From positions 18,861 through 82,860 of the forward strand of contig JAFLUG010000001.1 in assembly GCA_022508885.1 (NCBI GenBank): DNA of 64,000 nucleotides, in the 5' to 3' direction. A program made the translations under genes and the position numbers. Below are positions 3,770 to 60,209 of the stretch, in pieces. The DNA comes from Oscillospiraceae bacterium (GTDB lineage: Bacteria; Bacillota; Clostridia; Oscillospirales; Ruminococcaceae). The number at the start of each line of letters is the position of its first letter. Positions within the stretch are counted from its first letter, which is position 1. Below the pieces are notes generated by a model. That model did no database searches. It was not told the origin of the DNA and was given only the letters and a program-made list of their open reading frames with translations.

Positions 3770-3896
3770 AAATAGAATTTCAAAATTCATCACTTGACAG
3801 CGTTATGCGCGCAGCGCATAACGCTGTCAAGTGAGAACCGGTCAAAATTCTTTCTTCTGAAAAAATTTTGACCTTTTTGAAATTCGCGCTCTATTT
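3770..3896. repeat. Family-1 structured intergenic repeat, copy A (three-way-junction palindrome)
   Basis: Outer arms GAATTTCAAAA/TTTTGAAATTC (3775-3785/3875-3885), 21-bp perfect hairpin 3790-3834, second hairpin 3840-3873; same frame as 46195-46301. Confidence 0.9.
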
Positions 3897-43799: not shown

Positions 43800-46175
43800 T
43801 TATTTCAATTCGACTACTGTAACTCCCGCTTCGCCCTCGCCGTACTCACCGAGACGAAAGCTTTTTACGGCGGGGTTTCGGCGCAGGGCGGTATGAACAG
43901 CGGCTCGTAGAGCGCCCGTACCCTTTCCGTGAATAATAACTATCTGCGAAAGCCCCGACATAAGCGCGCCTGCGATAAAGCGCTCTACCTCGATAACGCC
44001 CTCGTCGCCCATTCTGCCGCGGATATCGAGTTCCATACCGCCGCGGCGGGTCATGTTGGACGAAGCGACCTTTTTAACTTTTCCGGCAGGCTGAGTCTGA
44101 ACGGGCTTTTTTTCTATCAGCCTGAGATTATTCGCGTTTGTTTTGACCTTCATAGAGCCTGTCTGAACATAGCAAACGCCGTTTATATTCGGAACAGTGA
44201 TAAGCGTGCCCTCTCTGTTTGTATCGAAAAGCTTTACCGTGTCGCCCTGTTTAAACGGGCGCGGCGGGATATATTTCTCCTCGCGGCGTTCTATAACGGG
44301 ATTAGCCTCGTCCTGCATTTTGTTGAGCGCGGAGTTTGCGCGGGACTTCGCGTCGGAAATTCCCTTTCGAAGAGCCTCTTTGTCCTTGATTTTTTTCAGC
44401 TCTTCAAGCTCGTTCAATAAAATATTCGACTGCGCGCGCGTCTGCTCTACAATGCTCAAGGCGCGCTGTCGTGCGTTTTCAAGCTCCTTTTCCTTCTGCG
44501 CCTCAAGCTCGGAGAGCTTTTGCTTAAGCTCGCTTTCGGTCATTTTTGCGTTTCGCTCGGACAGCTCCATGCTTGCCCTTAATTCCTCAAGCTCCTTTCG
44601 CGACTGCTCGAGCTTGTCAATGACCTCCTCAAACCGCTTATTTTCCGAGGTAACGAGATTTTCCGCGCGGTTTATCACATTTTTCGGCATACCGAGGCGC
44701 TGTGAAATGGCAAACGCGTTTGACTTTCCCGGAACGCCCACAATCAGCCTGTAAGTGGGCTTCAGGGTTTCCACGTCAAACTCGCAGCTTGCGTTTTCAA
44801 CGCCCTCCGTGTCAAGCGCGAACATCTTTACTTCCTGATAGTGAGTTGTCGCAAGCACCTTAGAGCCGCGGTCATTAAGCTCGGTGAGAATTGAAACTGC
44901 GAGCGCCGCTCCCTCTACGGGGTCGGTGCCGCTTCCCAATTCGTCGATAAGAACAAGCGATCTCTCGGTAGCGTTGTTTATAATTCCCACAACATTCGTC
45001 ATATGCGAAGAGAAGGTAGAAAGGCTTTGCTCGATGCTCTGCTCGTCGCCGATATCGACAAATATCCTGTCGAAAACGCCTATCACGCTTCCGTCGCCCG
45101 CGGGTATCATAAGTCCGCACGCCGCCATAAGCGAAAGCAGTCCTACGGTCTTTATCGAAACGGTTTTTCCGCCCGTGTTGGGGCCTGTTATGATAAGACA
45201 TCCGTATTTCTCGCCTATTTCGACCGAGATAGGAACAGCCGTATCGCGGTCAAGCAAAGGGTGACGCGCGCGGTTTAATATTACTTTCGGTTTGTCAACT
45301 ATTTCGGGAGTGACCGCCTTCATTTTCGCTCCGAGATTTGCTTTGGCGAAATGCAGCTCGAGTATCTGAGAGAGCCTGAAGTTTTCGGAGACAGCGTCGG
45401 CGTTTGTTCCTATTTCCTCGGATATTTCGCGCGTTATACGCTCGATCTCAGCCTGCTCGCGGTTTTTCAGAATGCGTATTTCGTTGTTTGCTTCTACCAC
45501 GCTCATCGGTTCGATAAAGAACGTCTGACCCGTTGCTGAGGTGTCGTGGACAAGTCCGGGAACGTCGTTCTTATGCTCCGATTTTACCGGAACGACATAC
45601 CGCCCGTCGCGCATGGTTACTACCGCGTCCTGCAAATATCCGCGCTGGGTCTTGTTTTTCAGCATTCCGTCGAGCTGTTCGCGTATCTGCTGACCCTGAC
45701 GGGTTATTCTTTTGCGTATCGACGCAAGCTCCGCGCTTGCGGTGTCTGCCATTTCCTCTTCGGAAAGTATACTGTCGGAGATGCGCTTTTCAAGCGCTTT
45801 TATCGGCGTAAGTCCGCAGAAATATTCCGACAGTGAGCAGTCGGTGTTTTCGCACTGCGAAAACCAATCGCACAGCATCTGCGTTTCTCTCAGCACCGCC
45901 GCCGTATCCATAAGCTCCTTAAAGCTGAGCATACTGCCCGCCGAGGCGCGTTTGAGCGCGTCGGAGATCTCGGGGACCTTGCGAAATCTCGGCGTGCCGA
46001 ATTTAGCCGACAGCGTAAACGCGTCGTCGGTTTTCCGCAGCTCGTTTTTTATGTCGTCAAACTCTCTGAGCGGCGACAGTTTAAGCGCCTTTTGACGGGC
46101 GTAGTCGCTTACGGTCTCATCTGCTAAAAGCTCTAAGATTTTGTCAAGCTCTAATTTTTTGTAGTATTTGTTCAT
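43800..46175 (-). CDS. mutS2: Endonuclease MutS2
   Basis: ITGPNTGGKTVSIKTVGL, LIDELGSGTDPVEGAALA, Smr domain ELDIRGRMGDEGVIEVERFI...IHGKGTGALR. Confidence 0.98.
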   Translation of the reverse strand: MNKYYKKLELDKILELLADETVSDYARQKALKLSPLREFDDIKNELRKTDDAFTLSAKFGTPRFRKVPEISDALKRASAGSMLSFKELMDTAAVLRETQMLCDWFSQCENTDCSLSEYFCGLTPIKALEKRISDSILSEEEMADTASAELASIRKRITRQGQQIREQLDGMLKNKTQRGYLQDAVVTMRDGRYVVPVKSEHKNDVPGLVHDTSATGQTFFIEPMSVVEANNEIRILKNREQAEIERITREISEEIGTNADAVSENFRLSQILELHFAKANLGAKMKAVTPEIVDKPKVILNRARHPLLDRDTAVPISVEIGEKYGCLIITGPNTGGKTVSIKTVGLLSLMAACGLMIPAGDGSVIGVFDRIFVDIGDEQSIEQSLSTFSSHMTNVVGIINNATERSLVLIDELGSGTDPVEGAALAVSILTELNDRGSKVLATTHYQEVKMFALDTEGVENASCEFDVETLKPTYRLIVGVPGKSNAFAISQRLGMPKNVINRAENLVTSENKRFEEVIDKLEQSRKELEELRASMELSERNAKMTESELKQKLSELEAQKEKELENARQRALSIVEQTRAQSNILLNELEELKKIKDKEALRKGISDAKSRANSALNKMQDEANPVIERREEKYIPPRPFKQGDTVKLFDTNREGTLITVPNINGVCYVQTGSMKVKTNANNLRLIEKKPVQTQPAGKVKKVASSNMTRRGGMELDIRGRMGDEGVIEVERFIAGALMSGLSQIVIIHGKGTGALRAAVHTALRRNPAVKSFRLGEYGEGEAGVTVVELK

Positions 46176-46194
46176 AATTTCCTCTTATTTTAAT

Positions 46195-46301
46195 TTGAAT
46201 TTCAAAATTCATGACTTGGCGTCAGCTTAGCTGACGCCAAGTCAGAACCGCAGAAATTTTTTCTTGTGAAAAAATTCCTGCTTTTTGAAATTCGCGCTCA
46301 A
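46195..46301. repeat. Family-1 structured intergenic repeat, copy B (three-way-junction palindrome)
   Basis: Outer arms GAATTTCAAAA/TTTTGAAATTC (46197-46207/46283-46293), 15-bp perfect hairpin 46212-46244, hairpin 46250-46281. Confidence 0.9.
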
Positions 46302-46448
46302 CCGATATGCGGCTATTTTTAGGCAATGCCGCAGGGTTGCCTTAAGTACTATATTCAATTATAAATCCAAACGCCGTTTTTGTCAAGCATAATACCGCTC
46401 ATTCCGCAAAGAATAAACAAAACAATATTCTTTACGGGGGCAAAACCA

Positions 46449-48950: not shown

Positions 48951-49148
48951 ATGGAAATTGGTTTGTTGTTCAGAATAGCCGCGGTTGGGATAATCGTGGC
49001 TGTGCTGAATTTGATCCTGAAAAAGACCGACCATGACGAACAGGCGGTCATGCTTACCGTCGCGGGGATAATAATAGTGCTTCTCATGCTTATTCCCGAA
49101 ATAGAGGAGCTGTTTAATACAATACAGGACGTTTTCGGATTGTGGTGA
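48951..49148 (+). CDS. spoIIIAC: Stage III sporulation protein AC
   Basis: 65 aa, 2 TM, GIIVAVLNLILKKTDHDEQAVMLTVAGII. Confidence 0.95.
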   Translation: MEIGLLFRIAAVGIIVAVLNLILKKTDHDEQAVMLTVAGIIIVLLMLIPEIEELFNTIQDVFGLW

Positions 49149-49222
49149 CAGACTGCCGATAAACCCTCATTTGTGCCGTCACGACGGCGATTCCTGACAT
49201 CTGAGGGCTTTTAGACAGTCTG
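49148..49222. repeat. Family-2 structured repeat, copy A
   Basis: CAGACTG...CAGTCTG outer arms, CCCTCA...TGAGGG inner arms, GCCGTC-ac-GACGGC core; shared with 60061-60167. Confidence 0.88.
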
Positions 49223-49241
49223 AAATGCAGGTTGGTACAAT

Positions 49242-59216: not shown

Positions 59217-60061
59217 AGGTTTTAATTGTATTCAATCAGGGAAAAACGGGAGCTGCGACGCAGTCGCACAAGATCGCCCAGTTTCTGATAGCCGAGGGTA
59301 TCACACCCTGCATTTTCGGTGAGAACACTCTTTTCGCCGAAAAGGTCGGCGCGGAGGTGGTAGAGTCGCCCGAAGGCTGCGATTATATGATAACGGTCGG
59401 CGGCGACGGTACAATACTGCGCTGGGGAAAGGTCGCGGCTGAGTACGGTATCCCGCTGCTCGGAGTGAATTTCGGCAGGCTCGGTTTTATGGCTACGGTA
59501 GAGTCGGAGGATATCTGGAAAATTCCCGATATTTTAAAGGCGAATCTCACAGTAACGCCGCGAATGATGCTTGACTGCAAGCTTATCCGCGACGGCGAGG
59601 TCATCTTCTCGGAAAAGGTTTTAAACGATGTCACTATTTCCCGAAGCAGCCGCTCGAGACTTCCCGAGTATGTTATAAACTGCGGCGAGAGCGAGGTTAC
59701 GCGCGTGAGAGCCGACGGAGTTATTTTAAGCTCGCCCACAGGTTCTACGGCTTATTCCCTTGCGGCAGGAGGACCGATAATCTCTCCCGATATGGAGTGC
59801 ATTGAGTTTACGGCGCTTTGTCCGCATACTCTCTTTAACCGCACTATGATCTTTTCCACGAAGAAAAAGGTTACGGCGCGGGTTTGCCACTACGGCGACA
59901 GCACAGCGACGATCTCCGCGGACGGGGGCGCGGCAGTGCCGTTTTTCGAGGGCGACGTCCTTCAGCTTACCCGTGCGGAAAAAGACCTGCTATTGATAGA
60001 AACGGGCGAGGGCTTCTACGGGGTTATTCACAACAAGTTATTAACGCCGATAAAGGATTAA
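59213..60061 (+). CDS. nadK: NAD kinase
   Basis: VGGDGTILRWGK, GVNFGRLGFMA, SSPTGSTAYSLAAGGPI. Confidence 0.97.
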   Translation: MKVLIVFNQGKTGAATQSHKIAQFLIAEGITPCIFGENTLFAEKVGAEVVESPEGCDYMITVGGDGTILRWGKVAAEYGIPLLGVNFGRLGFMATVESEDIWKIPDILKANLTVTPRMMLDCKLIRDGEVIFSEKVLNDVTISRSSRSRLPEYVINCGESEVTRVRADGVILSSPTGSTAYSLAAGGPIISPDMECIEFTALCPHTLFNRTMIFSTKKKVTARVCHYGDSTATISADGGAAVPFFEGDVLQLTRAEKDLLLIETGEGFYGVIHNKLLTPIKD

Positions 60062-60167
60062 CAGACTGCCAATAAACCCTCATCTGCTTTGTCAGCCTCA
60101 CCACGGCAACCATTAAGGTTAGCCGTGGTAAGGCTTCCTAACATCTGAGGGCTTCTTGACAGTCTGT
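60061..60167. repeat. Family-2 structured repeat, copy B
   Basis: ACAGACTG...CAGTCTGT outer arms, CCCTCA...TGAGGG inner arms, core GCCTcACCACGGC.../...GCCGTGGTaAGGC. Confidence 0.9.
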
Positions 60168-60209
60168 AAGTATACAATTGAATTGAATAGTGGTTAACAG
60201 GGAGCGAAT

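Follow-up and report, generated by a model that had tools for sequence, protein, structure and literature searches.

A genus-restricted, MITE-like three-way-junction repeat as the probable 5' leader of mutS2 and other genes in an Oscillospiraceae bacterium

The repeat that lies ahead of mutS2 in the Oscillospiraceae draft genome G000, here called copy B, is probably a member of a genus-restricted, MITE-like family of interspersed repeats whose copies are retained as structured RNA leaders 5' of the genes they precede, a reading to which we assign a probability of about 60%. The family is present in many copies, its structure is conserved, its copies have a preferred orientation and spacing before genes, its distribution is patchy and it is absent at orthologous sites. 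Copy B was analysed within a 64-kb stretch of this genome (the window), and its features are listed in Table 1.

Table 1. Coordinates of copy B, its neighbourhood and copy A in the window
Feature	Position	Strand	Description	Basis
mutS2	43800..46175	(-)	MutS_V + Smr; gene led by copy B	domain matches
Spacer and Shine-Dalgarno	46181..46196	(-)	AT-rich spacer AAATTAAAATAA and GAGG	flank consensus in four species
Element copy B	46197..46293	(-)	core GAATTTC...GAAATTC, ~97 nt three-way junction	BLAST and covariance-model matches, fold z -10.8
P1 3' arm (sense strand)	46197..46207	(-)	TTTTGAAATTC	consensus structure and pair counts
P2	46212..46244	(-)	GC-rich hairpin, 15 bp perfect	TGACTTGGCGTCAGC-TTA-GCTGACGCCAAGTCA
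P3	46250..46281	(-)	AT-rich hairpin, first in sense strand	one G.U pair
P1 5' arm (sense strand)	46283..46293	(-)	GAATTTCAAAA	consensus structure and pair counts
Left flank	46294..46322	(-)	degenerate copy of upstream unit (consensus about CAACGTTAT..GAGCG)	flank consensus; weak at copy B
Small extra hairpin	46322..46341	(-)	GGCAA...TTGCC, between promoter and element	absent from G012
Sigma-70 type promoter	46358..46386	(-)	TTGACA-17-TATAAT	12/12; would transcribe element as mutS2 leader
Copy A	3775..3885	(-)	leads short-chain dehydrogenase-like gene	repeat families D9 and D10

On its sense strand copy B runs in the order P1, P3, CGGTTC, P2, P1, AT-rich spacer, Shine-Dalgarno sequence and start codon. 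When read on the plus strand, P1 consists of GAATTTCAAAA (46197-46207) and TTTTGAAATTC (46283-46293), an 11-bp perfect inverted repeat whose innermost pair covaries between A-U and U-A among copies. The original prediction was correct on the sequence and coordinates of the perfect 15-bp P2 hairpin. For P3 its coordinates (arms 46250-46263 and 46268-46281) and TTGT loop stand, while the A/C mismatch that it placed there becomes a G.U pair when the minus strand is read. A 125-nt stretch folds on the minus strand at -55.4 kcal/mol (z = -10.8), with 0 of 200 shuffles as good, and the plus strand of the same stretch folds more weakly (-51.3 kcal/mol, z = -9.35). The structure of copy B is real and far beyond chance.

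The order of signals on the minus strand is a perfect sigma-70 promoter (46386-46358), copy B and then mutS2, whose ATG at 46175 lies 21 nt after P1 with the ribosome-binding site in between. The spacer AAATTAAAATAA is conserved at the right edge of the repeat family, and GAGGAAATTATG is also found in the relative G012. Copy B had been assigned to a divergent promoter region; it does lie between divergent genes, but "mutS2 5' leader" is the more fitting description, since the mutS2 start is 21 nt away and that of the plus-strand gene about 155 nt away. Copy A, the only other copy in the window, has the same orientation and stands 22 nt ahead of the ATG (3752) of a minus-strand short-chain dehydrogenase-like gene. 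The contrast in context claimed between the two copies therefore disappears, since each copy immediately precedes the ribosome-binding site of its own minus-strand gene (22 versus 21 nt before the ATG).

About 30 full or contig-end copies were found in the 2.28 Mb draft genome G000 by BLAST and with a covariance model derived from 14 G000 copies; many contigs end in a copy, as expected of repeats in draft assemblies. The aligned set comprises 134 copies from six species (G000, G022, G032 and G027, with single copies from G012 and G023), arranged in alignment A2 (G000, G022 and one G012 copy) and alignment A3 (G032, G027 and one G023 copy). In these alignments, which were fitted to the covariance model and are hence biased towards it, 97.6% (A2) and 97.9% (A3) of cells are paired, with both-side changes in 23/40 and 32/40 pairs, respectively. 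Compensatory changes affect 9/14 (A2) and 14/14 (A3) pairs of P3, and 11/15 and 13/15 pairs of P2. Cells changed on both sides number 298 in A2 and 371 in A3, against shuffle means of 84 and 99; the pairing values were never matched by shuffles and were lost when partners were slid by one column. The first alignment, A1, made with MAFFT from 14 G000 copies, already contained 15/40 compensated pairs. Our results clearly show that the three-way junction covaries massively across copies, and the earlier proposal of a repeat family in which the frame is constant and the self-complementary stems vary was right. A search of the window against Rfam gave 0 matches above the gathering threshold, the low-threshold matches being far under the cut-off.

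The copies are also oriented with respect to genes. Of 118 testable copies, 67 have a Shine-Dalgarno sequence with a start codon 8-40 nt past their sense-side end, and none of 114 has one past the opposite end; the rate at random positions is 2.2% (p about 1e-20, an optimistic value because the copies are related by descent, in genomes that are drafts). Start codons most often lie 22-24 nt from P1, and nearly half of the testable copies do not stand directly before a start codon by this criterion. Downstream genes are diverse and, judged by their encoded N-terminal sequences, look unrelated; four of them have the element close to their start in G000 as well as in G022, the stems being different. 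Most copies have a further repeat unit (about CAACGTTAT..GAGCG) upstream of them, which in some species forms arrays. In G032, copies L199-L238 have tandem ~35-nt units (..AAGATCAACGTTATAAACACGCAGCAAAGGCTCTTACGCC..) directly 5' of the element.

Within the genus, copies per genome amount to 61 in G022, 59 in G032, 53 in G027, 39 in G030, 31 in G000, 13 in G017, 6 in G025 and 0-3 in the others. In a sample of 249 genomes covering 126 genera of the family, with the best 15 candidates per genome scored, so that single copies could be missed, the element was found in G000 alone. The closest relative, G012, has a mutS2 protein 98% identical to that of G000, yet its genome holds 2 copies. At the G012 mutS2 locus (L274) the same sigma-70 promoter is followed by a TfoX_N-domain gene and then by mutS2 with the same GAGGAAATT ATG. 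In G000 (46176-46350 compared with L274) the TfoX-like gene is missing from this locus and the element stands between promoter and Shine-Dalgarno site instead; the best match to the TfoX-like protein elsewhere in G000 is 34% identical. An assembly chimera at copy B is unlikely, since both flanks are neighbours on a single G012 contig (C74). Inheritance of copy B from the genus ancestor is not supported either: 2 of 29 mutS2 upstream regions (G000 and G032) carry the element, with differing stems.

The element was likewise not detected at 19 G012 loci that match the flanks of G000 copies, which supports the expectation that relatives would lack it at the same place; several of these loci hold another repeat (AGGCTGTCGAGAAGCCC...). 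A clean insertion with target duplication, for which the original prediction had advised looking, was not seen: the element-free sites in G012, G022 and G065 show a replaced intergenic stretch with no recognisable duplicated target. The native Shine-Dalgarno sequence is retained at some sites (mutS2; L024, GGAGAATTGTGATG), where the element ends right before it, and elsewhere this sequence differs too. One of the 19 G012 loci (L261, contig C46) shows a possible right-end relic, GAAATTCAAATCAAAACAAGGAG, ahead of a gene that in G000 is preceded by a full copy (L018). A different palindromic repeat family (ACAGACTGCC..AAACCCTCA..TGAGGGCTT..GACAGTCTG) occurs in the window at 49148-49225 and 60061-60169, and copies that look related to this ACAGACTGCC..GACAGTCTG family take up G012 intergenic sites that in G000 hold the element, those at mutL and thyA among others.

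With terminal inverted repeats (P1), a ~97-nt core below 200 bp and no coding capacity, the element resembles a MITE; a target site duplication, a further MITE trait, was not recognisable at the sites compared. Y1 transposases (PF01797) number none in G022, G032 and G027, one IS200-like copy in G000 and one partial copy in G030; reverse transcriptases (PF00078) none in G000, G022, G032 and G030 and one in G027; IS110 transposases (PF02371) none in G000, G022, G032 and G027 and one in G030. As the presence of these genes does not track copy number, a REP/RAYT, group II intron or retron-borne, or IS110/bridge-RNA origin was rejected. An IS200-like Y1 transposase gene is found about 0.3 kb away from one truncated element copy (L026, G000 contig C133).

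A sister family, F, with the ends GAAATTTCAAAA/TTTTGAAATTTC, has 31 such ends per strand in G000, a genome that contains no evident IS-sized pair of TTTTGAAATTTC ends. Among 11 extracted copies of family F, a Shine-Dalgarno sequence with start codon lies beyond the sense end in 4 and beyond the other end in 0. The layout of this family is three-way-junction-like (e.g., L287, L290, L295 and L312; about 31 G000 copies), and it has the right edge TTTAAATAA and the upstream unit in common with the element.

These observations are also what a purely selfish interspersed repeat might produce, one in which a transposase acting in trans recognises P1 and the position before Shine-Dalgarno sites reflects target choice or the survival of harmless insertions, with no host benefit. 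The patchy, burst-like copy numbers, the 11-bp terminal inverted repeat, the orthologous sites free of the element in a close relative and the other repeat families at the same intergenic sites in that relative all point in this direction. However, pairing is strongly maintained in all three helices, including P2, which is far from the termini, and predicted folding favours the sense strand. We consider this explanation possible but doubtful.

With regard to the level at which the structure acts, the better predicted fold belongs to the sense rather than the antisense strand in 105 of 132 copies (Wilcoxon p 7e-6 for A2 and 1e-8 for A3, with copies that are not independent). Apart from the outermost pair of P1 and a single special position in P2, G.U pairs exceed A.C mispairs, 51 versus 26; counted once per species, column and type, the figures are 35 versus 23 (p = 0.15). 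At the special P2 position (A2 column 187, A3 column 78), G.U occurs in 31 copies and A.C in 34, which is strand-neutral. This last balance, as if both strands counted alike, would suit a DNA-level hairpin, cruciform or single-stranded, recognised by a protein as REP elements are or by a hairpin-recognising transposase, with pairing kept for the DNA form. Against it stand the excess of G.U elsewhere, the strand bias in predicted folding and the lack of Y1/RAYT transposases in the element-rich genomes G022, G032 and G027, and we regard it as improbable. An RNA-level role is favoured over a DNA-level one, although not proven, given the strand-biased predicted folding and the G.U excess on the one hand and the p value of 0.15 and the equal wobbles at the P2 position on the other.

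A transcription terminator or attenuator of the downstream gene is less probable still: a pattern scan flags P2 plus TGAATTTTGA as terminator-like on the minus strand, but the T-rich stretch is the conserved P1 3' arm and not a clean U-run, copy B lies between the mutS2 promoter and ribosome-binding site, and other copies precede many unrelated genes. Termination is unlikely as the main function because the element is placed between promoter and Shine-Dalgarno site; we agree in this regard with the earlier view that a simple terminator is unlikely. A riboswitch does not fit either, the stems varying freely, few unpaired bases being conserved and the downstream proteins looking unrelated.

No description of this repeat family was found in the open-licence literature. 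In Streptococcus pneumoniae, BOX, RUP and SPRITE repeats are reported to be enriched between convergent genes, and BOX modules to alter downstream expression (PMC3049150). Our element is like them a small modular interspersed repeat with extensive secondary structure, probable co-transcription with genes and mobile-like spread, and differs in sequence, in fold and in that many copies stand in sense a short and nearly constant distance ahead of the Shine-Dalgarno site. The ERIC/IRU (PMC2229807) and Correia NEMIS/CREE (PMC2649163) repeats are likewise MITE-like, and their RNA form affects the stability or processing of host messages, an effect that is orientation-dependent for ERIC (PMC2229807); the present element differs in that no target duplication was seen, in its three-way junction with freely varying stems and in a placement linked to the ribosome-binding site. 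It also resembles the description of bcr1 of the Bacillus cereus group, a group-specific repeat of about 150 bp in a Firmicutes group with mobile-element traits and conserved secondary structure (PMC2267715); placement near the Shine-Dalgarno site is not among the bcr1 traits described there. REP/REPIN sequences with RAYT (PMC3116915), including the GTAG/CGTC-tagged REPs (PMC3733652), are intergenic palindromic repeats too, often in mosaic arrays, and differ in their association with a Y1/RAYT transposase, which the element-rich G022, G032 and G027 lack.

The findings presented here allow us to outline how the favoured structured leader RNA may work. Transcription of copy B would start at the upstream sigma-70 promoter on the minus strand, and the leader would fold as a three-way junction with P1 as the closing helix, an AT-rich P3 and a GC-rich P2; a short AT-rich spacer, left unpaired, would connect the junction with the Shine-Dalgarno site. 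The effect would likely be general rather than ligand-specific: a compact leader may shield or process the message while leaving the ribosome-binding site open, and so influence mRNA stability or translation. The spread of the family would depend on a trans-acting process. More tentatively, the upstream repeat unit, the three-way junction and the AT-rich spacer might together constitute a mobile 5'-leader cassette that takes the place of the older leader or intergenic region of unrelated genes as far as their Shine-Dalgarno site and brings dozens of genes per species under common post-transcriptional control, its stems turning over fast with pairing kept.

Interspersed structured repeats as such are common in bacteria. 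A family confined to certain species of a single genus and placed in sense at a near-fixed distance before Shine-Dalgarno sites would amount to a natural experiment in the rewiring of 5' leaders across a genome; since close relatives hold about 30 versus 2 copies, the expression of the same genes could be compared with and without the element.
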